DNA from: Apostichopus japonicus
Taxonomy: Eukaryota > Echinodermata > Holothuroidea > Aspidochirotida > Stichopodidae
Length of the DNA stretch: 64,000 nt
Direction of reading: 5' to 3'
Assembly (NCBI RefSeq): GCF_037975245.1
Contig: NC_092569.1
Coordinates: 15,745,501 to 15,809,500 of the forward strand
Below the pieces are notes generated by a model. It was not told where the DNA came from. It made no database searches and saw nothing but the letters and a program-made list of their open reading frames with translations. This document shows positions 1-61,459 of this stretch, in pieces; position 1 is the stretch's first letter, and the number at the start of each line of letters is the position of its first letter. The translations under genes and the position numbers were made by a program.

Positions 1-2527
1 AAAGTGTACTTGTAATAATAACCGACTGATCTGTGAGGACTACAGATGCAGTACCGATGCTGTTTGTGATGTCAGGAATGAAATACGACAGTGTTATTGT
101 GATGAGGGATATGAAGGTGACGGTGAAACTTGTGAATCCTTGTATACAGACTGTCAGGATGTTTATGACGCTGGACAAAGGCAAGAAGGCATATATACAA
201 TCATGCCTACTGGGTGGCCTGGTTTACCATTCGACGTACATTGTAAAATGGAAAACGGCGGAGGATGGACCGTAAGTCTTCATTGAAACTCTATGAATGT
301 TTCAAGTATGTTTCCGTGTTTTTCATATATGTATTAGTCTATTGTAAACGGTTATGAAAGTACGAGTTCATGTTTTCGGTTTGGTTGCACGTTTATATTC
401 CTTAGTGTTGATTCAGTATATTAAATATACTTGAGTAAATGAAAATGGTGATAATCCTTAAAATTAACCTCCTCTTAAGAAAAAAAAAAACAACGCTAAG
501 AAATGTCTTAAGTTTATCAGACTGAAATATTATTCTCTAGATATATAGTTGTGAGGTATTCTTAAATTAACTGTGTATGTTAGCATGCTTCAACGACTCC
601 CATTATTTTATTTCTTTCATTATTCTTACCCGCTAACCTTCCAGGTGTTTCAACGTCGTAACGATGGATCTTCTAGCTTTGATCAAAACTGGGCTGCGTA
701 CAAAGACGGGTTTGGTGACAGCAGGAACTTATGGCTAGGAAATGAAAAGCTTCATTACTTGACTAACCAAAGAAACTACAAGCTTCGTTTTGACATCACT
801 ACTTCTAGTGGATCGGCTAAATATGCTGAGTATACAGAATTTCAAGTCGAGTCTGAAAGCAGCAAGTACAGAATGAATAAACTGGGGACTCACAGTGGAA
901 ATACAGGTTTGTTGCATGTGTGATATTTGCGCCTTATCTTGGAAAATAGGTCAAGTTAAAGTTACTAGTGTGTTCACAATAAACTTCATGAGATAATGTT
1001 CGTCACGGTTTCAACACATCTTGATGTTAAATGATAACTCCAAAGTATGCTCTAAGTACACTGGATCAGAAACCCTTACAAAGATGGTTTGGTGTAACAC
1101 CCCACACCTTTCACAAGCCACACCACCGTGTCTACGGTTGTATATACGAGATTAGTAAAAAGTCGATGATCCATTTCTGGGTATGTATGATAAAATTCAC
1201 GCATTAATTAGAACAAAAAACAAATAGAAACAGAACAAAAATGAATAAATAATACCACGCATATTGAACCATCTTAATTAGTTGCAATTGACGTGATGAA
1301 CCATCCTTACATTCGCCAGTTTTGGTGTTGTAATATTGGAAGAGCAAAGAAGGTTTTGTCCCGAACGGGATTTGAGCCAGTGATCTGAACAATTGCGAAA
1401 AAAGTATCGTCCCATCTGGACCCGTTACTTTAAAGAACAGTACAGTGTTAGATATTTACCGTATCATCGTATCAGCTGGATACCGCTGGTATCATTACAA
1501 CATATTAAAGTAGTCTGACTAGCCGATGAAAGAGAATATATGCTGAATGAGCATGCACCAGTCTAAGAACAGGAAATGTCATGGAAGAGAAATACGACCA
1601 TATATATTCATAGAACTATTAACAGAGAATAAAGGTTTCCAGTAAACACATACTACTAACAGAATAATTTTTTTTTACAAGATCTGTGAAACAATTATAC
1701 CAAGAAGAGCCACACACCGTGAGGACAGAGACAACCCTAGACAAAGATACAATTACAATGAGAAAATAATAGCTAAAAACTAGTCAATGGAAAGCCTAGG
1801 ATTTAGTTCTCATTTACAATCAAACACAATATTTACTAATTTAAACATAATATTTAATATCATTAGACAATTAGTTCCTATATACAAGCCTAGTTTTCAT
1901 ATTAAACATCATCCATTTAAATTCAAATCAATGGTCAACTCCATTGAGAAGTAAACCTGATTAAAATAAAGAGCAATAATGAATAAATCAGCTTATAAAG
2001 TATTTATAATGATCACGGAATTATCCCATTATGAATGTATTCTGAATCTCTTTCAAAGTGAATCCTCACCCCCCCCCCCCTTCTCAGTATACTGTAAAAC
2101 TTATTTTATATCCCATCAAAAGTGTCCAATATGACAGGATACTTACGCTATTGTTTAATGATCAAGTATTAACCACTGATGTTTCTTGCTGTTTTCCAAC
2201 ACAGGTCATGAACTCTCGTATAACAAAGGAAAACAATTCAGCACGCATGACCGAGACAATGACGCATGCGATACCTCCAACTGCGCAGAGAAGCACAAAA
2301 GCGGCTGGTGGCACTCGAATACTTGGTGCTCTTGTTATAGTTATAGCTATTGCTATTATTTCCAATACAGCAGTAGCTGCAAGGCAGTTTGTACGGGTGA
2401 CAACCTCAATGGTGTCTACAATGGTGGCGACGGAGAAATGATCTTCTCTTACAATTATTATTATTATCATTATAGTGTATTCTGCAGCCCCCAGTTCGTT
2501 GAAATGAAAATTCGACCATCCTCTTGA
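1..2527 (+). CDS. Gene 1 (3' part): secreted fibrinogen-related protein, EGF-like plus C-terminal FReD
   Basis: Exons are 1-271 (5' end cut by the window edge), 645-906 and 2205-2527 (stop TGA 2525-2527). The first exon starts inside the VWC-like segment, runs through an EGF-like domain (CYCDEGYEGDG) and opens the FReD (DCQDVYD... to GGGWT, donor gtaagt). The second begins VFQRR and contains WLGNEKLHYLT. It ends in phase 1, and the last exon completes the codon. The last exon has the calcium-site motif DRDND, WWHSN, LNGVYNGG and the C-terminus EMKIRPSS. Fibrinogen-related lectins are usually secreted and bind glycans or acetyl groups; that role here is inferred from the family. The NYT glycosylation sequon of the paralogs is replaced by KYR. 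Signal peptide, half FReD and TIL exons must lie left of the window. Confidence 0.87.
1340..1440 (-). repeat. Possible tRNA-derived SINE remnant in intron 7
   Basis: On the minus strand the segment reads GGCTCAAATCCCG followed by TTCGGGAC. This differs at two positions from a tRNA-type B box (GGTTCGAATCCCG). The same sequence lies in intron 7 of gene 2 (18421-18440) and gene 3 (about 33773-33796), with a more decayed version in gene 4 (about 50160), so it predates the duplications. I could not define an A box or a 3' tail, so the class is tentative. Confidence 0.3.
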
Positions 2528-2858
2528 GTTAATGACGGATAGTCTGTCATGTGATTTCTCTCGAAACCATTGTGGAAAAATGAGTAGTAAAATGAATATA
2601 TATTTTTCTTTATGAGAAACACAAATCAACTGGATGAAACGAGCCCTTCGTAGTATCTGAAAAAAAAAATTAAATTATGTTTCATCTTCGAAGATTTTAA
2701 CCTCTCAAGAAAATTTTAATAAGGAATACTTTTTGGTCAAATGTGAGTCAAAGATTGAAAAACAGTCAATATTCGTTAATCTTCAGACACAATGTTGAAT
2801 ATTTATTTATTTGCAATAAGTATCTAAACTAATTCAGCTCTCAATTGCAATGAATATG

Positions 2859-2864
2859 AATAAA
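2859..2864 (+). terminator. Candidate poly(A) signal of gene 1
   Basis: AATAAA lies 332 nt after the stop codon. The hexamer and its surroundings recur after gene 2 (19911-19916) and gene 4 (61720-61725), which supports a shared 3' end. Confidence 0.5.
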
Positions 2865-9004: not shown

Positions 9005-9158
9005 CAATGCGATCTGGCTAAGAAACATCATCATTTTACAACTTTGTAAGTACACTTCAGGTCATCCGTTGCTTTCAGGAACATCGAGGATATTTCTTAC
9101 CTATGGAGATACATTTCATTTGAATTGTCTTTCATATTATACCAAGACATTCACAAAT

Positions 9159-9239
9159 ATGGAGCTTTCCGTGGCTGTTCGAGCAGTATTTGCATTCTTG
9201 TGCACAGCAACCATCGCCTTTACGTCCTCGGACGAAACG
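9159..9239 (+). CDS. Gene 2 exon 1: signal peptide
   Basis: 27 codons beginning MELSVAVRAVFAFLC, with a hydrophobic core over residues 5-22 and small residues (A, T, S, S) where cleavage would fall. The donor gtgagt leaves phase 0. The exon recurs as 26814-26894 and 43170-43250, with few substitutions. Confidence 0.85.
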
Positions 9240-12200: not shown

Positions 12201-15200
12201 ATTCTTGGAATTTGAAAAGTATCTGCTTAGGAGCTATACTATAAAGATTGTTGTCGACGATTTCGCATTATGACGTTTACAACAATTGCATCCTTAATTC
12301 GTTTTACTGTATGTGTTATGTAAGGTTAACTCGCGTTATAACGCAGACAAACCAGGATCGGATATAGCCAGGTACTTACACTTGTGTTATTTTTTGAGGC
12401 CTTGGTATATTTGCAATTTAAAACCATTTTTATTGCATTTACATCGGCCAATATCTCATGTAAACCTATCGCATGCAATTGGTGCAATTCATACCGTGCC
12501 ATATTTCAATGTCAACCAGTAGTGTACTTTCACTGTGTAAGAATGGTTTTACTTAATAAATGCAATATTTGGTGTATACAATTTTCTGTCATATACTCAA
12601 TTCCATTTACAAAAGACATAAAATGTTTGCTGTGTTTGTTTTACACCTTAACGCACGTCGTATACTTCATTTATTGAAATAATTGATATGTTTTATCAAG
12701 CTACAAAACACTCGTAATATCTTATAAGCGATAGGCTCAAGTAATCATTTAACTTATATTCACTTCGTTAGTATTCAAAAACATTAACTCTTTCACAATT
12801 AGGCTATTCTTAATTGCAATCGTCATTAATGTATCACCTCTGACAACGCTGCGATAGTACCGTTGACGATCTCTGATAGTGTAAGAAGTTTTTTTTTTTT
12901 ATATATCAATTTGAGGATCTTTATCAATACAAAAACATTACTTTATTTCACTAAATGCAAACAAATAAACGATACAATTTTGATAACAAAAACTTTCATT
13001 GTAAAATATAGCGGTATAATTATATTGCGACGTTGTCCATGTTGCTATGTAGTGAATTCAACATTTAAAGATTATTTGTCATGTTTTCTTCATACACCGA
13101 AGTTACTACTTCTAGACAAAATACAGTCAAATATCGATCTTAATTATATGCTGAGATGACTGTGAATATAAAAATTAATGCTCACAAACATATTTTGCTC
13201 ACATTTTCGTTAGTGTCAGAAAGTAAAATTCGAAATTCTTTAATCTCTATTAAGTTTTTATCGCTAACATAGTTTTGCGAAAAATAAATTCTATTTTCAT
13301 CTGTTTTCCTTGAATGTATAACTCATATATTTGCAAATATTTCTGGTGCAATTAGGAAAACAAGAATACACAAGTAGATTGAGCTTCAACTGTAGCCAAT
13401 GTTAGTGAAACAACCACCTCCACTTTCCTCCACACCCACCCCCCCCCAAAAAAAAATGATATATGGGATATATTTCCAGTCAATTCTGATTGTTTTTTAC
13501 TCATTACATCAAGTTGGATAGATATTTCAAAATTAAAATTTAATAATTGTATCGCTGTTATGGATGAAGATATCAAACATCCTGACATAGGCAAGAATGT
13601 TTGTGAACAACCGTTTAGATTATTAATCATTATGAAATTGCTTTTTCCAAGTTTGAACATTCTTAAATTGCCTGTACATGATTATTTGATAAATGATATT
13701 TAAAAAATCTTTACAAGCAGTTACAATCTATTAACAGAACATATTGACATATATTTTTGGATGACTCTTCTTCTCATTAATAGAGTATTCACCGGAGAAG
13801 TGTACCTTTAACAACAGATGACACTCAAAGTAAGATATTTCACCTTAACTGCTTTGTTTTTCATTCCATAAATATTTAAAAAAGAAATGTAATTAACCGA
13901 AATAAATGAGTTTTGTTATTTCCAAGATAATTTTGTATTTTTGTTTCTGTTTCATTGACCGTATCTGTGTGAGACAGCATTTAGTATGTTACTTTCGACG
14001 ACTTAAAACGATGCAAAAATTACAAACTGTAATACCGTGAACAAGACAAGAAATGTTGTGACAAATGTTTTATAATGTAAATAATATTGACCCCACCCCG
14101 CCCCGAAAAAAATAATAAAGCAAAAAGTAGTTAGGGAATAGGACAGGGAGGGAGAGAATAAATGCAACGTATTCTAACACAGGAAATGATATATGTACAA
14201 ACTTTGACGTTAGGTTTCCATGTTACTTTTCAAGTTCCATTTTTCCTGTTGCGGTTTTAGCTATCTCGTAAAATCACAGAGAATTGTCAATTTCTTGCAG
14301 GATTTTCTTTAACGGTCAAGTATTGCATACGGTGACAAGGTTTTGTTACAAATTGAACACAAAGCTTGTATATTATATAAGTTTTTAATGTTTTTATCTC
14401 TTTATTACAGTGGCACATTACTTCTTTTATCAACGTTCTGAATATCCAAAAGACTGCCGAGACGTTCAAAGTCAGTGTTCTACGTCCAAATCTAGCGGAG
14501 TATACATTATCAAGCCAGATGGATTTGAAGAGCCATTTGAGGTGTTCTGCAACAACGACGTTGGTGGAGGAGGCTGGACGGTACGTCTAAATGGAAATGT
14601 TGATGTCATGTTTTAAACGTGATAAAGCCTTTCGTTAGCATGTAGGTATTATGACTTGAAATGTGTAGGGGTAATCAACAAGTCGCATCCTCCACTCAGC
14701 AACGTCGAAATTGGGAAATAGCTATCATTTTCGGAGACGATCTTTCTTAATACAGGGGCGTATCCAGGGGGGCGCAACAGGCGCGCCCCCCCCCCTATTG
14801 GCCGTCACCCAAAAAAAAAAAGTTTAGCAAAAAAAAAAAAAAAAATTGATGACGACCTTTATGTGAGATGTCGGTGATCGCTCAACCCCCCCCCCCCTCC
14901 CGTATGCTTTATTTTTTGTTTGCCAAAAAAAGGTTCTGGCGAAGTTCGGCGGCATAATAGTTTTAGAAACATAGATGGTAATTGTGTTTGTATTATCACT
15001 ATAATCACTAAATGACATGCCAGCCATACTAAATTGTGCATTTTGTGTCCATATTTACTGGAAATGTTGCTTATTATTAAGGTCGAAAAATGGATCACAT
15101 ATGGCCATGGGCGGCGATCCTGGGTGGAGGGGGGATATATCCCCCCATGAAAATGGGTGGAGGGGATGTAATGCACCATATCCCCCCCCCCCCACCAAAT

Positions 15201-18200
15201 GCCAGGGATAAGAATATTTTCATGCCTACATTTATGCATCTTCGTTAATGTACGGCTCTTTTTTAGCTTCATTTCTCGCCTACCATAAACGCAGTGCGAT
15301 CTTTTCATATAAAGCGTCTTTATAAAGCAAAAAAAGTTGACTGTAGGCTTCATTGGCCCTATAACAACAAAATGTATTATTGCGCCCACGGTATTGATAT
15401 AGTACATATATGCACCCTCATAGTATTCATATAGGCCCTATAGTAGGCCTACACACGTACATGGTCCCTCGAACAGCTGAGAATCTCATGTAACCAGGGT
15501 AATGCTTAATACACGTTTCACCTGGATGCCCTAGCAATCGGTAACTATGTGTAATTGTGTATTGCATGTGTATAGGCCTAATATCGCCTGCATGAGGCCA
15601 TTTTCTTCATCGAATAATATAACAGAGCTCTCGAACATTTTAACGTTGCGCCTGAAACAAGATTGACAGGGGCAGTTTTCCCAAAATAACACCCGAAATT
15701 TAAAAAAAAAAAAGGATTTTGGATCCTGATTATGAGATATTTCGGACATGACATCCCTATTTTAAAGTTGGGTATATGCCGCTTGGAAACCTCGGGAAGT
15801 GCCGTTTCCGGCCATCTAGAGGGTTTGTTAATCCCAAAATTTTCTTGTACGCTTCGCGCCAACCCATGGTGGCGCTACGCTTAGATAGTCAACAAGGTCA
15901 TACCCCCCCCCCCCCACTCGGAAGTACGGATCGCCGCCCATGCATATGACACCATTTTGCATTTCAGCCCTACTTTGAAAGCAAAAATTGTACACCCCTC
16001 CCCTTAGACCCATCCCCCAGGACGGCGATCATTCATGCCTGGCGCCCCCCCTATTGGAAAATCCTGGATACGCCCCTGTTAATAGTTATATAAATGGAAA
16101 ACATAAATTGTCCATTTCCTACTAGTGTTCTCAATGTTTTTCTTCTGTTATAGGTCATACAACGCCGCGATAGTGGAGCTGTGAATTTCAATAGGAGTTG
16201 GTCACAATATCAAGATGGATTTGGTTTCCTCTCAACTGAGTTTTGGCTCGGTAATGAAAAGTTATCATACTTGACGAACCAAGCAGACTACGAACTTCGT
16301 GTGGACATAGAATTATCTAATGGAGCTTCTTTCTATACAACATACAAAGGTTTTCGTATCACTGATGAACGGGGGCAATATAAGGTTACACATATTGAAC
16401 CACTCGAAAGTAATGCACGTAAGTATAAAACTTAGTAAACTTAGTAAAAAGGAAAATCGAAACGTTTCAACCATAACTTTAATAATAGTGATAATAATAA
16501 AAATAGTAATAATAATAATAATATTCTACTTTTATATAGCGCTTTATACTAGCAATAGGTTTCAAAGTGCTTTACAGACGATATGTACCCCTGATCAATG
16601 ATAACATGTCCCATAGACAATCCCTCTGTATACATATACATCTAATACGTTTTCTACAATCTGCATGATCTTTAAATGTAATTCCTTCTTATTTTACTAT
16701 TTAACGGTAATATTTATAAGCGATCATTTTTTCATGGCAGAGGTATTTGCAAACATTCTTGTCAAAATTGGATGTCTTTTCTTGATCTTACCAACTGACA
16801 GGTCCATTTCCCTCTATATGTCCTACGAACATGATCTACGGAACATGTACTTGTCAAGCAACATGTGAAGATCCCAACGGACAATCTGGTTGTTATAGTG
16901 ACTGTTTGGGTAGTGAGGGTTGCACCTGTCCAGCTGGTTTCTTGTTGCAAGGGAGCGACTGTATCCGTGCGAGTGAATGCGGGTGTTTCGTGGCAGAGGC
17001 CAACTTGGTTATACCAGTGAGTATATATATGATTCATTTCAATATCACGTGACTATGCAAACGAAACAGAAACGAAAATTAGGCTAAATGACGTTGTGAT
17101 TACACAGAAACTTAGAAAAAAAAATCCAATGTGTAATAAATACTATTAATTTTTATCTATTTATTCTAGGATGGAGAAACATTCGTTAACGATGACTGCA
17201 CACAGAAGTGTTCTTGTATCAATAATCAACTGATCTGTGAAGACTACAGATGTAGTACCAATGCTGTTTGTGATGTCAGGAATGAAATAAGACAGTGTTA
17301 TTGTGATGAGGGATATGAAGGTGACGGTGAAAACTGTCCACCCTCAGTGTCCTATAGAGACTGCCAGGATGTTTATGACGCTGACCATAGGCAAGATGGC
17401 GTATATACAATCATGCCTACTGGGTGGCCTGGTATACCATTCGACGTACATTGTAAAATGGAAAACGGCGGAGGATGGACCGTAAGTCTTCATTGAAACA
17501 CTATGAATGTTTCAAGTATGTTTCTGTGTTTTTTATATATGTATTAGTCTATTGCAAACGGTAATGAAAGTACCAGTTTATGTTTTCGGTTTGGTTGCAC
17601 TTTTATATTCCTTAGTATGGATTCAGTGTATTAAAAATACTTGAGTAAATGAAAATGGTGACATTATTATCTTTCTTTTATTATTCTTACACGCTATCCT
17701 TACAGGTGTTTCAACGTCGCAACGATGGCTCTCCTAGCTTTGATCAAAACTGGGCTGCGTACAAAAACGGGTTTGGTGACAGCCGAAACTTTTGGCTAGG
17801 AAATGAAAAGCTTCATTACTTGACGAACCAGAGAAACTACAAGCTTCGCTTTGACATCACTACTTCTAGTGGATTGGCTAAATATGCTGAGTATACAGAA
17901 TTTCAAGTCGAGTCTGAAAGCAGCAACTACACAATAAATAAACTGGGCATTCACAGTGGAAATACAGGTTTGTTGAATGTGTAATATTTGCGCCTTGCCT
18001 TGGAAAATAGGTCAAGCTAAAGTTACTAGTGTTCACAATAAACTTTATGAGAAAATGTTGGTCACAGTTTGAACACATCTTGATGTTAAATAATAACTCC
18101 AAAATATGCTCTAAGTACACTGGATCAGAAACCCTTACAAAGAGGGTTTGGTGTAACACCCCACCCCCTTTCACAAGTCACACCACTGTTTCTACGGTTG

Positions 18201-19581
18201 TATATACGAGATTAGTAAAAAGTCGATGATCCATTTCTGAGTATGTATGATAAAATTCACGCATTAATTATCACAGAAAACAAATAGAAACAGAACAAAA
18301 ATGAATAAATAATACCACGCATATTGAACCATCTTAATTAGTTGCAATTGACGTGAAGAACAATCCTTACATTCGCCAGTTTTGGTGTTGTAATATTGGA
18401 AGAGCAAAGAAGGTTTTGTCCCGAACGGGATTTGAGCCAGTAATCTGAACAATTGCGAAAAAAGTATCTTCCCATCTGGACCCGTTACTTTAAAGAGCAG
18501 TACAGTGTTAGATATTTAGCGTATCATCGTATCAGCTGGATACCACTGGTATCATTACAACATATTAAAGTAGTCCGACTAGCCGATGAAAGAGAATATA
18601 TGCTGAATGAGCATGCACCAGTCTAAGAACAGGAAATGTCATGGAAGAGAAATACGACCATATATATTCACAGAACTATTAACAGAGAATAAAGGTTTCC
18701 AGTAAACACATACTACTAACAGAATAATGTTTTTTTTACAAGATCTGTGAAACAATTATACCAAGAAGAGCCACACCGTGAGGACAAAGACTACCCTAGA
18801 CAAAGATGCAATTACAATGACAAAATAATAGCTAAAAACTAGTCAATGGAAAGCCTAGGATTTAGTTCTCATTTACAATCAAACACAATATTTACTAATT
18901 TAAACATAATATTTAATATCATTAGACAATAAGTTCCTATATACAAGCCTAGTTTTCATATTAAACACCATCCATTTAAATTCAAATCAATGGTCAACTC
19001 CGTTGAGAAGTAAACATGATTAAATAAAGAGCAATAAAGAATAAATCATCATATGAAGTATTTATAATGATCACGGAATTATACCATTAAATATGAATTC
19101 TGAATCTCTTTCAATGTGAATCCTCATCACCCCCTCCCCTTTTCCAGTATACTGTAAAACTTATTTTATGTCCCAACAAAAGTGTGCAATATAACAGGAT
19201 ACTTACGCTATTGTTCAAAGACCAAATATTAACCACTGATTGTTCCTGCTCTTTTCCTTCACAGGTTATTATCTCTCTTATAACAAAGGAAAACAATTCA
19301 GCACGCATGACCGAGACAATGACGCATGTGGTAACTTCAACTGTGCAGAGAAGCACAAAAGCGGCTGGTGGCACTCGAATACTTGGTGCTCTTGTTACAG
19401 TTATAGCTATTGCTATTATTTCCAATACAGCAGCAGCTGCAAGGCACTTTGTACGCCTCACAACCTCAATGGAGTCTACAACGGAGGCAACGGAGAAAGG
19501 ATCTTCTCTTACTATTATTATTATTATAATTACTACTGCAGCCCTCAGTTCGTTGAAATGAAAATTCGACCATCCTCTTGA
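9159..19581 (+). CDS. Gene 2: secreted half-FReD / TIL / EGF-like / FReD protein, 8 exons, 555 aa
   Basis: Exons: 9159-9239, 13784-13829, 14411-14580, 16154-16418, 16802-17016, 17170-17481, 17706-17967, 19265-19581. All junctions are GT-AG and keep frame. Predicted domains: signal peptide about 1-22; linker to 43; half FReD about 54-187 (KDCRDVQ, GGGWT, WLGNEKLSYLT); TIL about 194-247 with the CPTNMIYGTC start; VWC-like and EGF-like about 260-315; complete FReD about 321-555, with DRDND calcium motif and EMKIRPSS end. The protein has no transmembrane segment, so a secreted pattern-recognition or adhesive lectin is the likely role, inferred from the family. NRS and NYT sequons are present. Intron 1 (4.5 kb) is enlarged by a tandem duplication and intron 3 by nested transposons. 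The start was chosen as the ATG that opens the hydrophobic leader and is conserved in genes 3 and 4. Confidence 0.87.
9848..12116. repeat. Tandem duplication of about 1.1 kb inside gene 2 intron 1
   Basis: Copy A is about 9848-10902 and copy B about 10930-12116. Both contain AACAGTTATATCCTAACTAT, the CTTTCTGTTACATAAAATCA block and the TTCGTCCTTCTCGTTGTC block in the same order. Copy B keeps about 150 bp near 11340-11520 that copy A lacks. Gene 3 intron 1 has one copy only (about 27500-28680), so the doubling happened after the unit duplication. I see no open frame or splice sites that would make either copy coding. Confidence 0.8.
13784..13829 (+). CDS. Gene 2 exon 2: 46-nt micro-exon
   Basis: Acceptor attaatag and donor gtaaga frame 46 nt encoding SIHRRSVPLTTDDTQ plus the first base of a Met codon. 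Exon 1 ends in phase 0 and exon 3 needs phase 1, so only this insertion keeps the frame. Equivalent exons at 30347-30392 and 47082-47127 are also 46 nt and read SIHRRSLLSTTEDTQ and IIHRRSLPSTTVDTQ. Confidence 0.82.
14411..14580 (+). CDS. Gene 2 exon 3: N-terminal segment of the half FReD
   Basis: Encodes AHYFFYQRSEYPKDCRDVQ through GGGGWT. This is the FReD A-subdomain with its paired cysteines (DC and FEVFCNN). The end after GGGWT in phase 0 matches exon 6, which marks exons 3-4 as an internal duplicate of the 3' part of exon 6 plus exon 7. Confidence 0.88.
14753..16078. mobile_element. hAT-like non-autonomous transposon in gene 2 intron 3
   Basis: The 16-bp terminal inverted repeats CAGGGGCGTATCCAGG face each other at the ends. 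They are flanked by the direct repeat TTAATA (14747-14752 and 16079-16084). Gene 3 has the uninterrupted sequence cttaatagttat at the matching place, so this is a clean 1326-bp insertion. CAGGGGCG ends are typical of hAT families. The 6-bp duplication is shorter than the usual 8 bp. No transposase frame is present. Confidence 0.82.
15106..15942. mobile_element. Second inverted-repeat element nested in the hAT-like element
   Basis: The terminal repeats CATGGGCGGCGATCC (left) and its complement (right) bound 837 bp. The flanks catatggc (15098-15105) and catatgac (15943-15950) form a near-perfect 8-bp target duplication, as expected for hAT. The interior has long C/G runs and no protein-coding frame that I trust. 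Confidence 0.65.
16154..16418 (+). CDS. Gene 2 exon 4: second half of the half FReD
   Basis: Encodes VIQRRDSGAVNFNRSW, DGFGFLSTEFWLGNEKL and THIEPLESNA, the FReD core strands. It ends in phase 1 after ESNA, exactly where exon 7 ends, but the next exon is TIL rather than the calcium/ligand exon. FReD1 is therefore structurally incomplete. Exons 3 and 4 together form a symmetric 1-1 cassette of 435 nt. Confidence 0.9.
16470..16600. repeat. TAA-rich stretch and dispersed repeat end in intron 4
   Basis: A run of TAA/AAT triplets leads into ACTTTTATATAGCGCTTTAT, with GTGCTTTACAGACG following. Gene 3 has a shorter relic at about 31725-31800 and gene 4 lacks the block. TTTATATAGCGCTTT is, from memory, a recurrent end of dispersed repeats in marine invertebrates; the family was not determined. 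Confidence 0.45.
16802..17016 (+). CDS. Gene 2 exon 5: TIL cysteine-rich domain
   Basis: It starts with CPTNMIYGTCTC and continues with eight more cysteines (QATC, SGC, SDC, EGC, TCPAGF, DC, SEC, GC). This is the trypsin-inhibitor-like pattern that usually accompanies VWF-type modules. The split codon with exon 4 encodes Arg here and Pro in genes 3 and 4. Donor gtgagt, phase 0. Confidence 0.88.
17170..17481 (+). CDS. Gene 2 exon 6: VWC-like, EGF-like and start of the second FReD
   Basis: DGETFVNDDCTQKCSC resembles the short VWC-like tail seen after TIL domains. An EGF-like six-cysteine pattern ending EGYEGDGENC follows, then the FReD start YRDCQDVYD and the GGGWT end. One exon thus links three modules. 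Confidence 0.87.
17706..17967 (+). CDS. Gene 2 exon 7: core of the second FReD
   Basis: Encodes VFQRRNDG, NWAAYKNGFGD, WLGNEKLHYLTNQ and a phase-1 end at GNTG. It keeps the Trp and the NYT sequon that vary in the paralogs. Confidence 0.9.
19265..19581 (+). CDS. Gene 2 exon 8: calcium/ligand segment of the second FReD
   Basis: Starts YYLSYNKGKQFST and carries DRDND, NCAEKHKSGWW and LNGVYNGG, with the C-terminus EMKIRPSS and stop at 19579. Eight cysteines are present where ordinary FReDs have two. The usual region between WW and LNG is extended by a Tyr/Ser/Cys-rich loop, and a Tyr run precedes the last Cys in place of the usual GI.W..W.G pocket strand. Confidence 0.9.
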
Positions 19582-32800: not shown

Positions 32801-34936
32801 CACTTTTATATTCCTAACTATGGATTAAGTATGTTAAAAATACTTGAGTAAATGAAAATGGTGACAACCCTTAAAATTAACCTCCTCCTAAGAAACAAAC
32901 AACGCTAAGAATTGTCTTAAGTTTATCAGACTGAAATATTATTCTAAAGATATATAGTCGTGAAGTATTCTTAAATTGAGTGTGTCTGTTAGCATGCTTC
33001 AACGACCCCCGTTACTTTATTTCTAAATTCCTTCATTATCCTTACCCGCTATCCTTACAGGTGTTTCAACGTCGTACTGATGGCTCTACGAGTTTTGATC
33101 AAAACTGGGATGCGTACAAAGACGGGTTTGGTGACATCAGGAATTTATGGCTAGGAAATGAAAAGCTTCATTACTTGACGAACCAGAGAAACTACAAGCT
33201 TCGCTTTGACATCACTACTTCTAGTGGAGCTGCTATATATGCTGAGTATACAGAGTTTCAAGTCGAGTCTGAAAGCAGCAACTACACAATGAATAAACTG
33301 GGAACTCGCAGTGGAAATACAGGTTTGTTGCATGTTTGATATTTGCCCCTTGCCATGGATAATAGGTCAAGTTGAAGTTACTTGTGTGTTAACAATAAAC
33401 TTCATGAGAAAATGTTCGTCACTGTTTCAACACATCTTGATGTTAACTATTAACTCCAAAATATGCTCTTAGTACACTGGATCAGAAACCCTTTCAAAGA
33501 GGGTTAAGTGTAACAGTAACACCCCCACCTCCGTTCACAATTCACCGTTTCTACGGTTGTATAGAAAAGATAATTTAAAAGTCGATAACCCATTTCTGAG
33601 TATGTATGATAAACTTAACGCCTTAATTAGAACAAAAACAGATAGAAACAGAAAAAGTGAATTAATAATGCCACGCATATTGAACCATCTTAATTTGTTG
33701 CAATTAATGTGAAGAACCATCCTCACATTCGCCAGGTTTTGTTGTTGTAATATTGGAAAGCAATGAAAGTTTTGTCCCGAACGGGAATTGAGCCAGTGAG
33801 CTGAACAATTGCGAAAACAATATAGTCCCATCTGGACCCGTTACTTTAAAGAAACAGTATAGCGTTAGATATTTACCGTATCACCGTATCAATTGGATAC
33901 CGTTGGTATCATTTACAAAATATTGAATTAATCTGACTAACCGATGAAAAATAATATATGCTGAATGAGAAAGCAGTCTAAGAACAGGAAATGTTATGGT
34001 AGAGCAATACGACCACATATCTTCAAAGAACGATTAACAGAGAATGGAGGTTTCCAGTAAACACATACTAGCCTACAAGATCTGTGAAACAATTATACCA
34101 GGAAGAGCCACACACCGTGGTTGAAGACAAAGACAACCCGTGACATAGATACAATTACAATGTGTAAATAATAACTAAAAACTAGTTAGTGGAAAGCCGA
34201 GGATTTAGTTCTCATTTACAATCAAACACAATATTTACTAATTTAAACATAATATTTAATATCATTAGACAATAAGTTCCTAAAGACAAGTTAGTTTCCA
34301 TATTTAACATCATCCATTCAAATTAAAATCAATGGTCAACTCCATTGAGAAGAAAAACTGATTAAAATAAAGAGAAATAAAGAATTAATCAACTCATGAA
34401 GTATTTATAATGATCACGGAATTATCAAATTTAAAATGAATTCCGAATCTCTTTCAATGTGAATCCTCACCCCCCCCCCCCCTCCTTCCAAGTATACTGT
34501 AAAACTTATTTTATGTCCCAACAAAAGTGTGCAATGTGACAGTATACTTACATTTACGTTTTTACTTGTTTAATGACCAAGTATTAACCACTGATGTTTC
34601 TTGCTGTTTTCCTTCACAGGTTATTATCTCTCTAACAACAAAGGAAAACAATTCAGCACGCATGAACGAGACAATGACGAATGCGATACCTTCAACTGCG
34701 CAGAGAAGCACAAAAGCGGCTGGTGGCACTCGAATACTTGGTGCTCTTGTTATAGTTATAGCTATTGTTTTGATTTCCAATACAGCAGCAGCTGCACGGG
34801 ATTTTGTACTATTGACAACCTCAATGGTGTCTACAATGGAGGCAACGGAGAAATGATCTCCTCTCACCCTTATTATTATTATAGTTCAAACTGCAGCCCC
34901 CAGTTCGTTGAAATGAAAATTCGACCATCCTCTTGA
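26814..34936 (+). CDS. Gene 3: secreted half-FReD / TIL / EGF-like / FReD protein, 8 exons, 555 aa
   Basis: Exons: 26814-26894, 30347-30392, 30969-31138, 31416-31680, 32000-32214, 32373-32684, 33061-33322, 34620-34936. Exon lengths and phases equal those of gene 2. This is the least disturbed unit: intron 1 has no internal duplication and intron 3 is only 277 bp. Differences include NNNVVGGGWT at the exon 3 end, NAVC followed by DVRNELRQCYCNEGY in the EGF-like domain, and WLGNDKLSHLT in the half FReD. In the last exon the variable loops read CFDFQYSSSCTGFC and SSHPYYYYSSNC. The eight exon-8 cysteines, DRDND-type calcium motif (here ERDND) and NYT sequon are kept. Role as for gene 2: a secreted lectin-like protein, inferred from family. 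Confidence 0.9.
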
Positions 34937-37509: not shown

Positions 37510-37617
37510 TGTACGACTGAAGACCTCAACGGTGCCTACAATGGAGGCAGCGAAGAAATTATTTCATCTCGCTATTATTATTATAATTACTGCAATGTCC
37601 AATTCGTTGAGATGAAA
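37510..37617 (+). pseudogene. Open fragment of FReD exon 8
   Basis: Reads CTTEDLNGAYNGGSEEIISS, then a Tyr run, CNVQFVEMK, without interruption. It then diverges from the exon. Unlike the 21.7-kb copy it has no frameshift, but it lacks the upstream half of the exon, an acceptor and the stop context. Considered a remnant. Confidence 0.7.
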
Positions 37618-43169: not shown

Positions 43170-46100
43170 ATGGAGCTTTCCATGGCTCTTCGAGCACTAT
43201 TTGCATTCTTGTGCACAACAACCATCGCCTTTACGTCCTCGGAAGGAACGGTGAGTTAAACTTTTTACAATTTCTGTTCTTCATTATTATAAATCACGTT
43301 TCTTTCTTGTTTGTTAGATGTTATTATTTAAGCCTGGGTAATATGTTTTACACGTTTCTTTCTTGCTTGCTGGGTTATATAAATTCCCACAAAACTTAAG
43401 AAAAGTTTTATTACTTGATAGCCTGTTTTACAATTACTAGTACAACATTCTTGTTTTTAGTAGCTTATGCAGTTGGAATATTGCAACTGATATGAAAGTA
43501 ATTTGATTTTTGCGAGTAACAATTCTTCTTCAATAAATTCCTTCTTTCCAAAATAATAATCTATCTTCTACAGCCTACAGAAGGGTGCGTTTTTGGTGTA
43601 AAATTTGCACTGCACCTTATAATGAAAATATTGCATAACAAATTCTATTTTTTGCTTAGTTAATTTTGAAATCTTACATTGCCTTGAGAAACTTTCTCTT
43701 ATATTGTCAATAAATATCGCACGTTATCGCTTATGTATTCCTAAATATATCTATTTAACCACACGTCGCTGATTTGTTCAATATAACACTAACGCGTAAA
43801 ACTAGAATCGTATGTTTTACGTAATGGCTTAGAACATAACCATTAACAATTTCAGAATAACATAAACATTTGTGAAAGTTATTTTAAGACATTTGAACAG
43901 TTATATCCTAACTATTTTAGAAACTTTGATGTTGAAACGTAACTTTGATGTTACACTAAATCTCATTGACCATCATCAAGTCTCTATATTTCCTAACTAA
44001 ATACGGATAACTGTCTCTTTAAAAATCGATTTGACTACATTAGTACGCTAAGTATTGCAAAACTACAGTATAGGTTAATCGTACTCGAAAAAAAACCCTT
44101 TAAATTTGATTAATTAAGTATTCTACCTTCGCTTGAAAGTCTTTAATCGTAGCAAAAAATATATAATAATCATATGTGCAGTCCGCTTTCTGTTACATAA
44201 ATTCACTCCACTTCATGTCCAAGTGGCGCCTTTTCCGTTACGCGTGAACAAGAGTCAAAGTTAAATATTTTAACGATCTATTGTATAATTGAGAAGATAT
44301 TAGAAATTATTGATCATTCCATGTCTTTTTCTCCTGTTATATATGTTTTTAACTTATTGTTGAGCGTTAAAATCATATGAACAAAGTTGTTTAAATATTA
44401 AAGGCAGAACTGTAAAATAACAACGTTGTTCGCTATCATAGCGCACTATCATAGAATTTCACATATTTACTTCGGAAATATCTACGGTGATAAATTACAT
44501 ATAACAAATACCTCTTTATGATAAAGTTTATAATTCAAATTCGTCCTCTTTGTCCTTGTTTGCCCAATTAACTTCGTTTAACGAGACTTGGTTCATTGTC
44601 GGATTTAAATTACTTAATTTTAATGAAGAAAGAACAGATATTTTCAAAACTTGATGCAATAATGTACTAATATATTTTCAAATTAGTTTTATTTGATTTT
44701 TTTCTTAGTAAGCATTAGTAAATCTTTGAAAGCTAACATAAACACTAATGCATATTTGCCTTGCTAAATTGCACTTAACAATTAGCTTCCGTGCAATACT
44801 TGCACGGGTAAACTTCAATGGCTACAAATCTCTTGCAATAATATACTTTAGTCTATACCGTATAGTAACTTGTACAATATTCAGAACTTTGAAATTATTG
44901 TTAGTTTAAACTAATAATATGTAGATGTTTATCTCGTTCAAATTCGTCCTTCTCGTTGTCTTAAAAAGTACTTAGAAGTTCCAAATACCGCTCTCCCATG
45001 ATTTTGAAGATTAATGCACAATTATAGAGTTTATGTCCTTAAACTATCAAGCAAGTAGTTTATAACTAAACAATTAGACCCTTAAGTACAATATTTTCAT
45101 ACTCTTGGAATTTGAAAAGTATCTGCACAGGTTCTATACTAGAAAAATAATTCTCGGCGATTCGCATCAGAAGTTAACAAAAATTACACCCTTAATTCGT
45201 TTTACTGTTTTTGTTATGTAAGGTTAACTCGGGTTGTAACTTAGTATCGGATATTGCAAGGTACATGCATATGTGTTATTTTTTCGATTTAGTGTATTTG
45301 CACTTTGAAGCATATTTTTTTCTAGTAACATCGTCAATATCTCAGGTTAACCTAACGTATGCAATTGGTGCATTTCATACAGTGTCGTATTCCCATGTCA
45401 ACCAATAATGTACTTACACGGTGTACAAAAGGTCAGGTACATCCCTCACTACCCAAAAAGTCACTTTAACAACCAGATTTTCCGTCGGAATCTTCACATG
45501 TTGCTTGGCAAGTACATGTTCCGTAGATAATGTTTGTTGGACATGTAGATGACAATGTAGCTGTCAGTTGGTAAGACCAAGAAAATACATCCAATTTTGA
45601 CAAGAATGATTGGAAACACCTCTGCCATGAAATGTGATCGTTTCTCCATTTAACAGTTATATAGTAAAATAAGAAGGAATTACATTGACAAATATGGAGA
45701 TTGTAGAAACGACTGGATGTATATGAATAAAGTTATGTTGTATTAGTATTAACGTTTAGTTTTTTACTTACGTGCATTACTTTCGAGTGGTCCAATATGT
45801 GTAACCTTATATTGCCCCCATTCATCAGTGATACGAAAATCTGTGTATGTTTTGTAGAAAGAAGCTCCATTTGATAATTCGATATCCACACAAACTTCGT
45901 AGTCTGCTTGGTTCGTCAAATATGATAACTTTTCATTGTCGAGCCAAAACTCAGTTGAGAGAAAACCAAATCCATCTTTATACTGTGACCAACTCCTATT
46001 GAAATTAACAGCACCGCTATCGCGGCGTTGTGTGACCTATAACAGAAGAGGAACATATTGCGAATAATATAACCAATTAAATACACTCTCGAGAATGTAC

Positions 46101-49100
46101 TCGAGTAGGAAAAGTACAATTGAATGTATCCATTTATGTCACTATTAGGAAAGATCGTCTCCGAAAATAATAGCTATATCCCAATTTCGACGTTACTGAG
46201 TGGGGATGCGACTTCCTGATTACCCTGCACATTTTCAAGTCATAGTACCTACATGCTAACGAAAGGCCTTATCACGTTTAAAATATGACATCAACATTTC
46301 CATTTAGACGTTTCGTCCAGCTTTCCACCAACGTTGTTGTTGCAGTACACCTCAAATGGTTGTTCATATCCATCTGGCTTGATAATGTATACTCCGTTAG
46401 AGCTGGACGCAGAACATTGACTTTGAACGTCTCGGCAGTCCTTTGGATATTCAGAACGTTGATAAAAGAAGTAATGATCCACTGTAATAAAGAGATCAAA
46501 ACATTAACAAATTATATAATATGCATGATTTGTGTTCAATTTGTAACACAAACTTGTCACCGTATACAATACTTCACCGTTAAAGAAAATCCTGCAAAGA
46601 AATTGACAATTCTCTGAGATTTTAGGAGATAGCTAAAAATCGCAGCAGGAAAGATGGAACTTGAAAAGTAACATGAAAACCTAACATCAAAGTTGGTACC
46701 TATGTCATTTCCTTTGTTAGAATACGTTGCATTCCTTTCTCTCCCTCTTTGTCCTATTCCCTAACTATTTTTTGCTTTATTATTTTCTTCCGGGGTGGGG
46801 TTGATATGATTTATATAATAAAACACTTGTTAAAAATTTCTTGTCTTGTTTACAGTATTATAGGTTGTAAAATAGCACCTATTTGACATATATTTTTGAT
46901 GACTCTTCGTCTCATTAATGAAGAATTTATTTATCGTAACTGTTTGTAAAGAACTATTAATTTTTTTTCAATCTCATGTATCAAATAATCATGTACAGAC
47001 AAATTAAGAATGTTGGAAAATAAACAATTTCAAAATGACACATTGACATATATTTTTGATGACTCTTCTTCTCATAAATAGATTATTCATCGGAGAAGTT
47101 TACCTTCAACTACAGTGGACACTCAAAGTAAGATATTTCACCTTGAACTGCTTTGTTTTTCATTCCATCTATATAAAAAAATGTAATTCACCAAAATAAA
47201 TGACTTTTGTTATTTCCAAGATAACTTTCTGTTTTTGTTTCTGTTTCATTGACCGTGTCTGTGTGAGACAGCAATTAGTATGTTACTTTCGACGACTTAC
47301 AACAATCCAAAACTTACAACCTTTAATACTGCAAAAAAGACAAGAAATTGTTGACAAATGTTTTTTATAATGTATGTAACATCGACCCCAACCCCGATAA
47401 AAATAAAGCAAACAAGGGTTAGGGAAAAGGGCAGAGAGGGAGAGAAATGAATGCAACGTGTTCTAACACAGGAAATGATATATGTACCAAATTTGATATT
47501 ACTTTTCAAGTTCCATCTTTCCTGCAGCGGTCTTAGCTATCTCCTAAAATCTCAGAGAATTGTCAATTCAGGAATTCAGGCAGGATTTTCTTTAACGGCC
47601 AAGTATTGTATACGTCGACAAGTTTTTGTTACAAATTGAACACAAATCATGCATATTATATAATTTGTTAATGTTTTGATCCCTTTATTACAGTGGATCA
47701 TTACTTCTTTTATCAACGTTCTGAATATCCAAAGGACTGCCGAGACGTCCAAAGTAAGTGTTCTACGTCCAACTCTAGCGGAGTATACATTATCAAGCCA
47801 GATGGATTTGAAGAACCATTTGAGGTGTACTGCAACAACGACGTCGGTGGAGGAGGAGGCTGGACGGTACGTCTAAATGGAAATGTTGATGTCATATTTT
47901 AAACGTGATAAAGCCTTTCGTTAGCATGTAGGTCTAATGACTTGAAAATATATAGGGGTAATCAGGAAGTCGCATCCCCACTCAGTAACGTCGAAATTGG
48001 GAAATAGCTATTATTTTCGGAGACGTTCTTTCCTTATAGTTACATCAATGGATAACATAAATTGTACATTTCCCACTCGAGTACAACCGAGAGAGTGTAT
48101 TTGATTGATGATAGTGTTCCCAGTCTGTTTCTCTTCTGTTATATATAGGTCATACAACGCCGCGATAGCGGTTCTGTGAATTTCAATAGGAGCTGGTCAC
48201 AGTATGAAGATGGATTTGGTTTTCTCTCATCTGAGTTTTGGCTCGGCAATGAAAAGTTATCATATTTGACGAACCAAGCAGACTACGAAGTTCGTGTGGA
48301 CATAGAATTATCTAATGGAGCTTCTTTCTACACAACATACAAAGGTTTTCGTATCACTGATGAATGGGGGCAATATAAGGTTACACATATTGGACCACTC
48401 GAAAGTAATGCACGTAAGTTAAAAACTTTATAAAAAGTAAATACGAAACGTTAATAATAATAATACAACCATAACTTTATTCATATGCATCTAAGTCGTT
48501 TTCTACAATTTGCATACATTTTCAATGTAATTCCTTCTTATTTTAATATTTTACTGTAAAACTGAGGAACGATCATATTTCATGGCAGAGGTGTTTTCAA
48601 TCATTTTGCCAAAATCGGATGTATTTTCTTGGTATTACCAACTGACAGCTACATTGCCATCTACATGTCCAACGAACATGATCTACGGAACATGTACTTG
48701 CCAAGCAACATGTGAAGATCCTGACGGAAAATCTGGTTGTAAAAGTGACTGTTTGGGTAGTGAGGGCTGTACCTGTCCAGCTGGTTTCTTAATGCAAGGC
48801 AGTTACTGTGTCAGTGCGAGTGAATGCGGGTGTTTTGTAGCAGAGGCCAACTTGATTATACCAGTGAGTATCTGAACGAATTTCATTTCAATATCACATT
48901 ACTATAGAAATGAAACAGAATCTAAGCTAACTGACCTTGTTTCAACACAAAGTCTCAAAGTCTGAGAAAACACACCCACAATGTTTAATAAATATCATTT
49001 TTATATTTTCATTAAATAACTTTTAGAGTGGGCAAACATACGTTAACGATGACTGCACACAACATTGTTCTTGTAACAATAACCAACTGATCTGTGAAGA

Positions 49101-52100
49101 CTACGTCTGTAATACTAATGCTGTGTGTGATGTCAGGAATGGAGTACGACAGTGTTATTGTAATGAGGGATATGAAGGTGACGGTGAAAATTGTCAATAT
49201 AGAGACTACCAGGATGTGTATGACGCTGGCCATAGACAAGGTGGCATATATACAATCATGCCTACGGGATGGCCTGGTTTACCATTCGACGTAAATTGTA
49301 AAATGGAAAACGGCGGGGGATGGACCGTAAGTTTTAATTGAATCACTATAAATGTTTCAAGTATGTTTCTGGGATTTTTTTAATGATCTAGTCTACTGTA
49401 AACGGTAATAGAAGCACAACTTTATGTTTCAGGTTTGGTTGCATTTTTGTAATTCCTTACCATGGATTCAGTATATTAAAAGAACTTATCAATGAGTAAA
49501 CGAAAACGGTGACAACCCTTAAAATGAACCCCTCCTAAGAAACAAACAACGCTCAGAAATGTCTTAAGTTTATCAGACTGAAATATCATTCTATAGATAT
49601 AGGCTATAATCAGTCGTGCGGTATTCTTAGATTAAGTTTGTCTGTTAGCATACTTCAACGACTCCCTTATTATCTTTCTTTTATTTTTCTTACCCGATGT
49701 CCTTCCAGGTGTTTCAACGTCGTTCTGATGGCTCTACGAGTTTTTATCGAAACCGGGCTGCGTACAAAGACGGCTTTGGTAACAGCAGGAACTTATGGCT
49801 AGGAAATGAAAAGCTTCATTACTTGACGAACCAGAAAAACTACAAGCTTCGATTTGACATCACTACTTTTAGTGGATCAGCTTTATATGCTGAGTATACA
49901 GAATTTCAAGTCGAGTCTGAAAGCAGCAACTACACAATGAATAAACTGGGCACTCGCAGAGGAAATACAGGTTTGTTGCATGATTGATATTTGCGCCTTG
50001 CTTGGGTGATAGGTCAAGTTAAAGTGACTAGTATGTTCACAATAAACTTCATTAGAAAATTGTACGTCATGGTTTCAACACATCTTCATGTTAAATATTT
50101 ACTTCAAAAATGCTCCATGTACACTAAGTGTTGTATTGTTGTAAGGGAAAAGAAGGTTCCGTCTCGAAAGGGATTGAGCCAGTGATCTGAACAATTGCAA
50201 AAAAATCTCGTCCCATCTGGACCCGTTATTTTAAAGAAACAGTTATGTGTAAGATAGTTACCGCATCATTGTATCAATTGAATACCGGTGGTATCAATTA
50301 CAAAATATTGAAGGAGTCTGACTAGCCGATGAAAGAGAATGTATGATGTATGAGAAAGCATCAGTCTAAGAACAGGATATATAATGGAAGAGAAATACGA
50401 CCATATATCTTTCCAGAACCATTAATAGAGAATATAAGTTTCCAGCAAACACAAACTTCTAACAGAATAATGTTTCTTTCAAGATATGCGAAACAATTAT
50501 ACCAAGAAGAGCCACACACCGTGTTTGAAGACAAAGACAACCCTGGATAAAATTACAATGTGAAAGTAATAACTAAAAACTAGTTAATAGAAAGCCCAGG
50601 ATTTACTTCACATATAGAATCAAACACAATATATTCTAATTTAATCATAATATTTATTATAATAATGCAATAATTTCCTTTAGAAAAGCCTAGTTTTCAT
50701 ATTAAAAATCATTAATTTAAATCCAAATCAATGGTCACTTCCATTGATCTGTAAACCTGATTAAACTAAAGAGCAATAAAGAATAAATCAGCTCATGAAG
50801 TATCTTTAATTATCACGGAAATATCACATTAAAAATGAATTCTGAATCTCTTTCAACGTGAAACCTCATCGCCCCCACTTCTCAGTAGACTTTAAAACTT
50901 ATTTATATTCCAACAATAGTGTGCGACATATCAGGTTTCTTACGCTATTGTTCACGGTCAAGTATATTGATCGCTGATGGTTCTTGCTGTTTTCCTTCAC
51001 ACACTGTAAATTTTAATTAGTCATATACACATGCCAAAATGGTCAAATGACTAATTTTGCATTAGTCAGAATTTTTGACTAATTTCATCGGTCATATGAC
51101 TAATTAAAATGGCTAAAGACCAATGAAAGTTAGTCATTGTCCAAAATAGTGACGAAGCATAATTAGTCAATTGGGAATCACGAAATTTGATTTCAAAGCT
51201 TTATTTGTTATTTTTGGTCTTCAAGGTTTTTTGTTATTTACTTACAAACAACTTCCGCGCCACAATATGGATGAATATTAAAAAAAAAATTCTAAAATCA
51301 CCAATAATTAAAAACCCAAGGAATAATGGATATGCTATATAACAATTTTCGGTTAAGTGTAAACTCTAAGACGTCATAAGAAAAATTTCCACAAATTTTT
51401 GGGGGAAATTGATAATTACTTATAGCAAAAACTTAATGAGGTTAAGGCGATATTCCAGCACCGGTACTAAAACGTCTTCGTCATTTGACTAATTTAGAAT
51501 TCACAAATGACGTCAGATATACGTAGCCGCGCGTGCGCACTCTGCAGGCGCCAGGCCTCTAGCTCTCGATGATTTCGACGCCATATTTGATACTGCAGTA
51601 AGAAATTCTGGAGCCGAGAAAATGTCTGCAATCGCAAGGTGGGTGTATCTTATAACTTTACTAAATTGTGATTTAATTGCAAGTTATTCTTTATTTAGTA
51701 TTTTTAGAATAGATAGTTAAATTGATGAAAAGTAAATTACCAGTTTTAGTTCTGCTTAGCAACAACGAACGTTCGTCGTTCTAGCCTAACGTTATGCCAT
51801 ATGCATGATATGTGCAGGATACCTCATACTCACAGGCCTAACGTGATGTGCACACAAATTTATCTTTGTTTATTTTTAAATGTTAACCTGAGTAGGGCTT
51901 AGCTTATTTACTGTTCAAATCGATGAAATTGTCAGACTGAAAGTAACGGTGAACAGCGTTATAACTACGGTGGTCGGCACTGGGCGGGCCCGACCAGCAC
52001 GGAGGATTTCCGCCAACCACTCCGGATGAAAAACACTGCTTCCGACCGGCACTAATTTCACATAAAAAAACTGCTTAAAACGTAACTATTTGTGAATAAA

Positions 52101-61100: not shown

Positions 61101-61459
61101 CTAATTTTAATTAGTCAATTTGACTAACTTAGATTAACAGTGCAGGTAATTCTCTTGCTAATAACAAAGGGAAACAATTCAGCACGCATGGCCGAGACAA
61201 TGACGAATGCGATACCTTCAACTGTGCAGAGAAGCACAGAAGTGGCTGGTGGCACTCGAATACTTGGTGCTTGCATTGTCGTGATGGAAATTGTCTTTAT
61301 TTCCAATACAGCGACAGCTGCCATTCTCTGTGTACTGATGACAACCTCAATGGTGTCTACAATGGAGGCAACGGGAAAAAGATATTCTCTTACTATTATA
61401 TTTATAGTTACCACTGCAGCGCCCAGTTCGTTGAAATGAAAATTCGACCATCCTCTTGA
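43170..61459 (+). CDS. Gene 4: rearranged but open half-FReD / TIL / EGF-like / FReD gene, 8 exons, 551 aa
   Basis: Exons: 43170-43250, 47082-47127, 47694-47866, 48149-48413, 48649-48863, 49027-49326, 49709-49970, 61146-61459. All frames and GT-AG sites are open. Exon 3 has one extra Gly codon, exon 6 is 12 nt shorter, and exon 8 is one codon shorter. The second FReD has lost its first cysteine (RDYQDVYD instead of RDCQDVYD) and the usual Trp (RNRAAYKDGFG instead of QNWAAYKDGFG). Exon 8 keeps eight cysteines, but the loop reads CLHCRDGNCLYF. Intron 1 holds an inverted copy of exons 3-5. Intron 7 is 11.2 kb because of a 10.1-kb transposon ending 3 nt before the exon. It may be a functional divergent paralog or a gene starting to decay; transcript data would decide. 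Confidence 0.8.
45431..46481 (-). pseudogene. Antisense copies of FReD exons 3 and 4 and a TIL exon fragment
   Basis: The exon 3 copy (46314-46481) has a 2-nt deletion before its end and its donor GT is changed to AA. The exon 4 copy (45772-46036) is still open, with acceptor and donor intact, and has WLDNEKLSYLT and YEVCVDIEL. The TIL fragment (about 45431-45560) has an in-frame stop after SGC and is truncated at the junction. With no leader or second FReD on that strand, this is not a gene. Confidence 0.82.
45431..47030 (-). repeat. Inverted duplication inside gene 4 intron 1
   Basis: About 45431-46865 is the reverse complement of about 47311-48780 and so carries exon 3, exon 4 and part of exon 5 in antisense. 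A short direct piece (about 46883-46920) and another inverted piece (about 46925-47030, matching sequence before the micro-exon in gene 3) follow. The arms are about 1.4 kb with a spacer of about 0.45 kb. Genes 2 and 3 have no such structure. Confidence 0.85.
52607..55130. repeat. Satellite-like array of about 300/400-bp repeats
   Basis: The block GGTGACCTCGGATCACATGA begins repeats at about 52607, 52909, 53307, 53706, 54106, 54398 and 55058. Spacing is near 399 bp, or near 295 bp when a segment of about 107 bp is absent; the last interval is longer and degraded. The long form contains AGGTCAAATTGAGGTCAAGG, a cluster of AGGTCA half-sites. Confidence 0.85.
55332..55369. repeat. CA microsatellite
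   Basis: Alternating CA with a short CATA interruption, next to the right end of the composite repeat. Confidence 0.9.
58125..58207 (+). pseudogene. Exon-like fragment inside the CMC element
   Basis: After a tttgtcaacag acceptor the frame reads DATAVAAVLGIPLLLKEKIK followed by SFLIFADESV, then a gtaagg donor. The clean borders suggest a former exon of an element-borne or captured gene. I do not recognise the protein with certainty, and neighbouring frames are broken. Confidence 0.4.
59630..60290 (+). pseudogene. Two degenerate tandem copies of a coding segment
   Basis: The first copy (about 59640-59850) reads DGEEVGSCSLLISDLSSYIA and FDLAYPTI, then a stop, then KKTMVFIQKII. The second (about 60025-60270) reads DGEEVGSSSWLISALSAYIA, then YYVFNLAYPTVCKKTMVFIQ and QYFLVNFT. 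Upstream frames shift in both. From memory this resembles the C-terminal part of high-copy uncharacterised proteins of fish and marine invertebrates; that link is unverified. Confidence 0.45.

Follow-up and report, generated by a model that had tools for sequence, protein, structure and literature searches.

Echinoderms, which to our knowledge have no adaptive immunity, possess large lectin families. Mollusc FREPs are a secreted multi-gene family of proteins carrying the fibrinogen-related domain (FReD) and are thought to recognise pathogens. A holothurian fibrinogen-like protein, FReP-A of Parastichopus parvimensis (P19477), was reportedly described by Xu and Doolittle in 1990. FReP-A, likened to the present genes by description, is named in the consulted part of PMC2702171, according to which holothurian fibrinogen-like transcripts respond to lipopolysaccharide. 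In Apostichopus japonicus a fibrinogen-like transcript, not tied to the genes described here, is up 2.58-fold after lipopolysaccharide (PMC4264123, consulted in part). In the consulted part of PMC5638244 (PLoS Biol 2017), FREPs are the greatest gene-family expansion in A. japonicus and rise in regeneration; 21 tandem FREP genes are placed on one scaffold, with clustering mainly on one linkage group. Here we analyse a stretch of 64,000 nucleotides of the A. japonicus genome (C9:15745501-15809500, contig NC_092569.1; hereafter the window), which carries a tandem array of genes encoding a half FReD, a TIL domain, an EGF-like part and a full FReD. The array resembles the reported expansion in its FReD genes and tandem clusters, and would match it in lying mainly on one linkage group; the consulted text of that paper, compared by description, mentions neither a half FReD nor a TIL, nor any order of domains. 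In the literature searched for combinations of FReD with TIL or EGF, a search whose scope excluded most subscription journals, we met no account of such a layout. The FREP expansion is known; the half-FReD/TIL layout, well conserved within that expanded family, appears to be new.

Self-comparison of the window revealed four units (A to D) whose similarity of 79-92% extends over long stretches and takes in the introns, and because of this extent their resemblance is not due to chance. Gene B, whose model was assembled by hand, has eight exons with AG/GT at all internal splice sites, giving 1668 nt that encode 555 amino acids and a stop. All its exons lie on the forward strand (window coordinates throughout): exon 1, with a signal-peptide-like start, at 9159..9239; exon 2, a short linker, at 13784..13829; exons 3 and 4, the first and second half-FReD exons (F1 and F2), at 14411..14580 and 16154..16418; exon 5, the TIL domain, at 16802..17016; exon 6, with TILa, the weak EGF-like part and the first exon of the full FReD, at 17170..17481; exon 7, the second exon of the full FReD, at 17706..17967; and exon 8, with the P subdomain, a Cys-rich insert, a Tyr loop and the stop, at 19265..19581. 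Two candidates for exon 2 were present in intron 1, and the one with splice sites kept in genes C and D was taken under preset thresholds. In genes C and D, too, none of the eight exons is missing, the splice sites are AG/GT and no internal stop occurs; genes B and C are intact, with eight exons each. The three complete genes and one partial gene of a preliminary description made from the sequence are thus present, gene A being partial in the window. The exon lengths that it took to be shared are identical in B and C (81/46/170/265/215/312/262/317 nt) and differ in gene D at exons 3, 6 and 8 (173, 300 and 314 nt).

In the predicted protein a signal peptide, called by eye, is followed by the half FReD, and then come TIL, TILa, a weak EGF-like part and the full FReD; the protein would be secreted. 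In the Pfam analysis Fibrinogen_C scored 286.2 bits against a cut-off of 22 in two stretches, the C-terminal copy spanning positions 2-220 of 221, and the half FReD aligned with solved FReDs over about the first 120-130 residues only. TIL (PF01826) scored 31.1 bits against a cut-off of 24.5, TILa (PF12714), between TIL and the EGF-like part, 39 bits against 27, and EGF_3 fell under its cut-off (22.8 against 28.5 bits). The order half FReD, TIL, EGF-like and FReD proposed earlier therefore stands, with TILa overlooked and the EGF-like assignment sub-threshold. Comparison with known FReD proteins revealed that, within the FReD/FREP superfamily, the C-terminal domain is a complete FReD with P subdomain, above the curated cut-off, and the N-terminal one is a half only. 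The C-terminal FReD can be aligned with ficolins and techylectin 5A and keeps their DRDND stretch, a calcium-site motif in the P subdomain. Unlike ficolins, the 555-residue protein showed no collagen-like region in the Pfam scan, and in place of the WWY..CH..NLNG loop it has an insert of about 21-23 residues (hand count) that carries additional cysteines. The TIL-TILa region matches repeats of FCGBP (8rde), and TIL is followed by TILa as in FCGBP and zonadhesin-type TIL-E proteins; these differ in that the Pfam scan found no VWD or C8 here and only a single TIL-TILa pair. The same scan found no immunoglobulin-like domain, in difference to mollusc FREPs. Most half FReDs read contain three cysteines, and hence one of them may be free for an inter-chain link.

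We consider it probable, with some reservation, that these genes are members of the sea-cucumber FREP superfamily, each encoding one secreted protein with a half FReD, a TIL-TILa-EGF-like stalk and a complete FReD, and that all derive from a single phase-1 fusion. The half FReD would be a FReD truncated at its second exon, with A and B subdomains and no P subdomain. By way of phase-1 introns, a simple FReD gene would have contributed its 5' exons (signal peptide, F1 and F2) to a TIL-EGF-FReD gene, and in this fusion the first domain would have been left without a third exon. Many genes, mostly on one chromosome, would then have resulted from tandem duplication and inversion, from front and back exons recombining with one another, and from the half domain being lost in places. 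In the protein, the full FReD would bind a ligand via its P subdomain, the pocket loops bearing a variable Tyr/Ser/Cys-rich insert, and the half FReD and TIL stalk would build or link oligomers.

An immune or recognition role is what we infer for these proteins. It is conceivable, and somewhat doubtful, that they serve matrix building or regeneration and not defence. The rise of FREPs in regeneration in A. japonicus mentioned above, a process on which PMC5638244 lays its emphasis, speaks for such a role; on the other side, the genes in the consulted part of PMC5638244 cannot be matched to the genes of this locus, and the holothurian fibrinogen-like transcripts of PMC4264123 and PMC2702171, each consulted in part, respond to lipopolysaccharide.

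Analysis of substitution rates (ratio of nonsynonymous to synonymous changes, dN/dS, by the Nei-Gojobori method) covered 26 close copies, namely A-D, F, G and M1-M20; E was omitted as a near twin of A, and rows with stops or with partial or unresolved exons were dropped exon by exon. The values were 0.17 for exon 3 (23 of the 26 copies), 0.29 for exon 4 (26), 0.40 for exon 5 (25), 0.39 for exon 6 (26), 0.24 for exon 7 (26) and 0.31 for exon 8 (23). The half-FReD exons 3 and 4 are under purifying selection. Exon 3 measures 170 nt in all complete copies read except D, and exon 4 measures 265 nt in all except M9. Among the 24 further close units (A, E, F, G and M1-M20), exons 4, 6 and 7 are open in all 24, exon 5 in 23 and exon 3 in 21, with two cut by the stretch read and one containing a stop; exon 8 was resolved in 21.

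Alternative splicing would make ordinary single FReDs of these genes, the half FReD being one of two exchangeable fronts that share one P subdomain. In-frame joins are possible from exon 4 or 7 to exon 8 and from exon 3 to exon 7, and 562 and 1351 coding bases precede exons 5 and 8, both leaving a remainder of one when divided by three. Simple F1-F2-F3 genes exist, and the half retains the constraint of a FReD. We nevertheless regard this explanation as improbable: the half and full F2 exons are just 40-47% identical within the same gene (four genes), and exons 7 and 8 share a higher synonymous divergence that exons 3-5 do not.

Two adjacent genes, one for a short protein ending with the half FReD and one for a TIL-EGF-FReD protein, would also account for the exon order, and the preliminary description had named transcripts of such separate genes as what would overturn it. 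TIL-EGF-FReD units do occur for which no half FReD was found in the vicinity (14 of 46 tree rows), so the back part can stand alone; no half FReD lies within about 3 kb upstream in units T1-T3, or within 3.9 kb in Q1. Exon 4, however, ends in a phase-1 donor and the TIL exon begins in phase 1, and intron 4, before the TIL exon, is 178-848 bp long; an ATG that is in frame with TIL and open up to it occurs in only 2 of 26 copies. Across the genome 34 places match the region of exon 1, 33 of them on C9, including a match of just 45 bases; among the remaining 32 on that contig, exon 4 follows 4.0-7.6 kb downstream in 29. Counted from the other end, 29 of the 33 close exon-4 copies are preceded by the same signal-peptide exon, and inverted fragments are two of the remaining four. 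The whole order is kept in three distant relatives, each representing a clade of its own. Because of the constraint on the half exons, the short intron 4 with its rare ATG, the shared exon 1 and the three distant relatives, we hold two separate genes to be very unlikely; the half FReD and TIL-EGF-FReD parts are likely encoded as one gene. That the half FReD is a functionless, decaying remnant is scarcely credible given the dN/dS of 0.17 and 0.29 over 23 and 26 copies and the nearly constant lengths of exons 3 and 4, even with a half FReD that was probably lost in some lines and copies that have stops or lost cysteines.

Three half-type F1 places that are not linked to TIL (16.17, 25.60 and 32.32 Mb on C9) were read and are simple FReD genes. 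They share the start YF(F/Y)YQEP(E/Q)YPRDC and F1-F2 with the half FReD and then run on to F3, and no TIL was seen in the 4-6 kb read at each. Their F2/F3 introns, read by eye, are in phase 1, as is the joint between half FReD and TIL. In a tree of 33 hand-chosen FReD rows (14 half, 3 simple and 16 full), rooted at the midpoint, the half FReDs form one clade (100/97) and join the simple FReDs (99/95). Since the half FReD/TIL joint shares phase 1 with the F2/F3 intron found in the simple genes, one old phase-1 fusion followed by losses is a likely origin of the layout, and such a fusion is the simplest reading. Units T1-T12 and Q1-Q2, TIL-EGF-FReD units in which no half FReD was found, are nested within the family in the protein tree of exons 5-7. 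With two distant relatives that carry the half FReD as its root, this tree requires three changes of the half state, and starred branches force two of them. Three changes on a tree so rooted fit losses, and the half FReD was therefore probably lost later in some lines; a late gain is not favoured. In T1-T3 and Q1 the absence of the half FReD was judged from 3-4 kb of upstream sequence, and in T1-T3 no exon-1-like match occurs within 3 kb upstream of TIL. Two other origins were considered. A recent internal duplicate of the full FReD was rejected at 40-47% identity in four genes and with separate clades for the two domains, and a half FReD peculiar to the local array was ruled out by distant relatives with the same order. 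A FReD cut at an exon border and kept under purifying selection in many genes would be a clean case of phase-1 exon shuffling.

Comparison of front and back exons revealed different histories. Synonymous divergence is about 0.22-0.23 in exons 3-5 and reaches 0.61 in exon 7 and 0.53 in exon 8. Exons 3-5 reject a nine-row group that has 100/100 support in the tree of exons 7-8 (approximately unbiased test, p-AU 1.6e-6), and M1-M5 held together are rejected for exons 7-8 (p-AU 4.8e-79); both groups were picked after viewing the sequences, which weakens these p values. Rows without an exon in these tests were M8, M14 and M20 for exon 3, M14 for exon 5, and G, M5, M7 and M13 for exon 8. This conflict between the trees indicates that front and back exons have recombined.

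When exon 8 is aligned with ficolins and simple genes, the insert falls at the WWY..CH..NLNG loop, and the loop that precedes the last strand is altered as well; loops at this site we take, by analogy with ficolins and techylectin, to line the ligand pocket. The insert is missing from three distant clades, two of which have loops rich in Tyr at this position. In 23 copies the loops measure 15-19, 2-11 (two in one deleted copy, otherwise 10-11) and 4-11 residues. Tyrosine (31%), serine (19%) and cysteine (15%) predominate in their composition, with TAT used for 207 of 237 tyrosine codons. The proportion of nonsynonymous differences (pN) is 0.252 in the loops against 0.102 in the framework (23 copies), and constraint on the loops is looser. 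Tentatively, dozens of these genes may form a germline repertoire, that is, a bank of binding sites on a common frame, in which the half-FReD/TIL stalk is fixed, the C-terminal FReDs are swapped by recombination, and the Tyr/Ser/Cys insert and the TAT-repeat loop at the pocket differ in both length and sequence. If this is true, variable Tyr/Ser/Cys loops on a fixed frame, together with exon recombination, make sea cucumber germline recognition repertoires directly testable.

Several points weigh against the reading of one secreted, ligand-binding protein derived from a single fusion. The one-protein model is drawn from genomic sequence. A FReD that lacks both the P subdomain and the final strand may be unable to fold by itself, and the layout raises the question of how a FReD can function lacking its P subdomain. 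Ligand binding as known from ficolins cannot be carried over, because the canonical pocket loop is replaced. The loop dN/dS is 0.41 (bootstrap 0.22-0.68), below the value of 1 that positive or diversifying selection would exceed, and does not demonstrate such selection. Broken copies also occur, M14 having stops in exons 3 and 5 and several units having stops in their exon-8 matches. As to origin, a block running from TIL to the second exon of the full FReD (F2'), inserted between F2 and F3 of a FReD gene, is an alternative that gives the same phases and anatomy. The tree behind the link to simple genes is rooted at the midpoint and includes just three such genes, and in T4-T12 and Q2 the absence of the half FReD was judged among the exon-4 matches listed and not from the upstream DNA.

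The genome searched comprises 671,581,487 bases in 35 contigs, of which C35 is the 16,099-base mitochondrial genome; the order of its genes and tRNAs, read over 16,000 of these bases, is that of echinoids and holothuroids. In the searches with exons 4, 5, 6 and 8, 150 matches were scored each, so the counts are lower bounds. On C9 at least 67 units carry an exon 6 with an identity of 63% or higher; TIL is present in 65 of them, exon 8 in 61 and the half-FReD exon 4 in 44, and in at least 40 of the 67 exons 4, 5, 6 and 8 are all present in order. The half-type F1 query matched at least 150 places, and 83 of the 150 listed have a TIL exon 0.9-3.3 kb downstream. Among the 145 listed on C9, 78 have TIL at that distance (one is an inverted pseudo-fragment) and 67 do not, and at least one of these unlinked places (18.288 Mb) does carry a TIL, below the scored level; all five listed on C20 have TIL 1.2-1.3 kb downstream. 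A genome-wide search with PF00147 turned up 2732 candidates at first look, with C9 holding most of the matches listed. The array in the window is one corner of a chromosome-scale FReD superfamily that lies mostly on one chromosome. The count of at least four genes given in the preliminary description, although its four units are real, is hence a great undercount once the locus is extended. Its proposal of a small lectin cluster of its own is rejected, with at least 67 exon-6 anchored units on C9 alone; the array is a piece of the chromosome-scale FReD expansion, in a species for which an expansion of FREPs has been reported (PMC5638244, as far as consulted).

The other genes in the window lie on the forward strand, and their exons were located by matches to the exons of gene B, with exon 2 placed by its kept splice sites. 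Exons 1-8 of gene C are found at 26814..26894, 30347..30392, 30969..31138 (half-FReD F1), 31416..31680 (half-FReD F2), 32000..32214 (TIL), 32373..32684, 33061..33322 and 34620..34936 (with the stop). Decayed exon-8 relics with stops occur at 21726-21870 and 37501-37617, about 2-3 kb downstream of B and C. Exons 1-8 of gene D are found at 43170..43250, 47082..47127, 47694..47866, 48149..48413, 48649..48863 (TIL), 49027..49326, 49709..49970 and 61146..61459 (with the stop). Gene D shows signs of weaker constraint, namely the change of a full-FReD cysteine to tyrosine in exon 6, an extra codon in exon 3 and an intron 7 of 11 kb. This intron contains a satellite at 52873-54294 with a period of 399 bp and 3.6 copies. 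An inverted, broken copy of exons 3-5, with stops and a lost donor, lies upstream of exon 3 within gene D (45431..46541, reverse strand), and a similar inverted copy lies upstream of exon 3 in gene G (C9:15852796-15853867, reverse strand). D and G group as sisters when the tree is built from exons 3-5 or from exons 5-7, and not when it is built from exons 7-8; because of the first two trees, a single inversion copied along with the gene is probably behind both fragments.

Gene A crosses the window start. The 3' part of its exon 6 (1..271, the full exon beginning upstream at C9:15745466), exon 7 (645..906) and exon 8 with the stop (2205..2527) are inside, and exons 3-5 are just upstream. Gene A (C9:15744450) has a near twin 75,032 bases along the contig (C9:15819482), with matching exon offsets and proteins from exons 3-8 that differ by one residue, in exon 6; the pair reflects either recent copying or an assembly duplicate. 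Elsewhere in the assembly, G000:C29:14745-31219 contains five COX1-like pieces, possibly further mitochondrial or mitochondrial-derived sequence.

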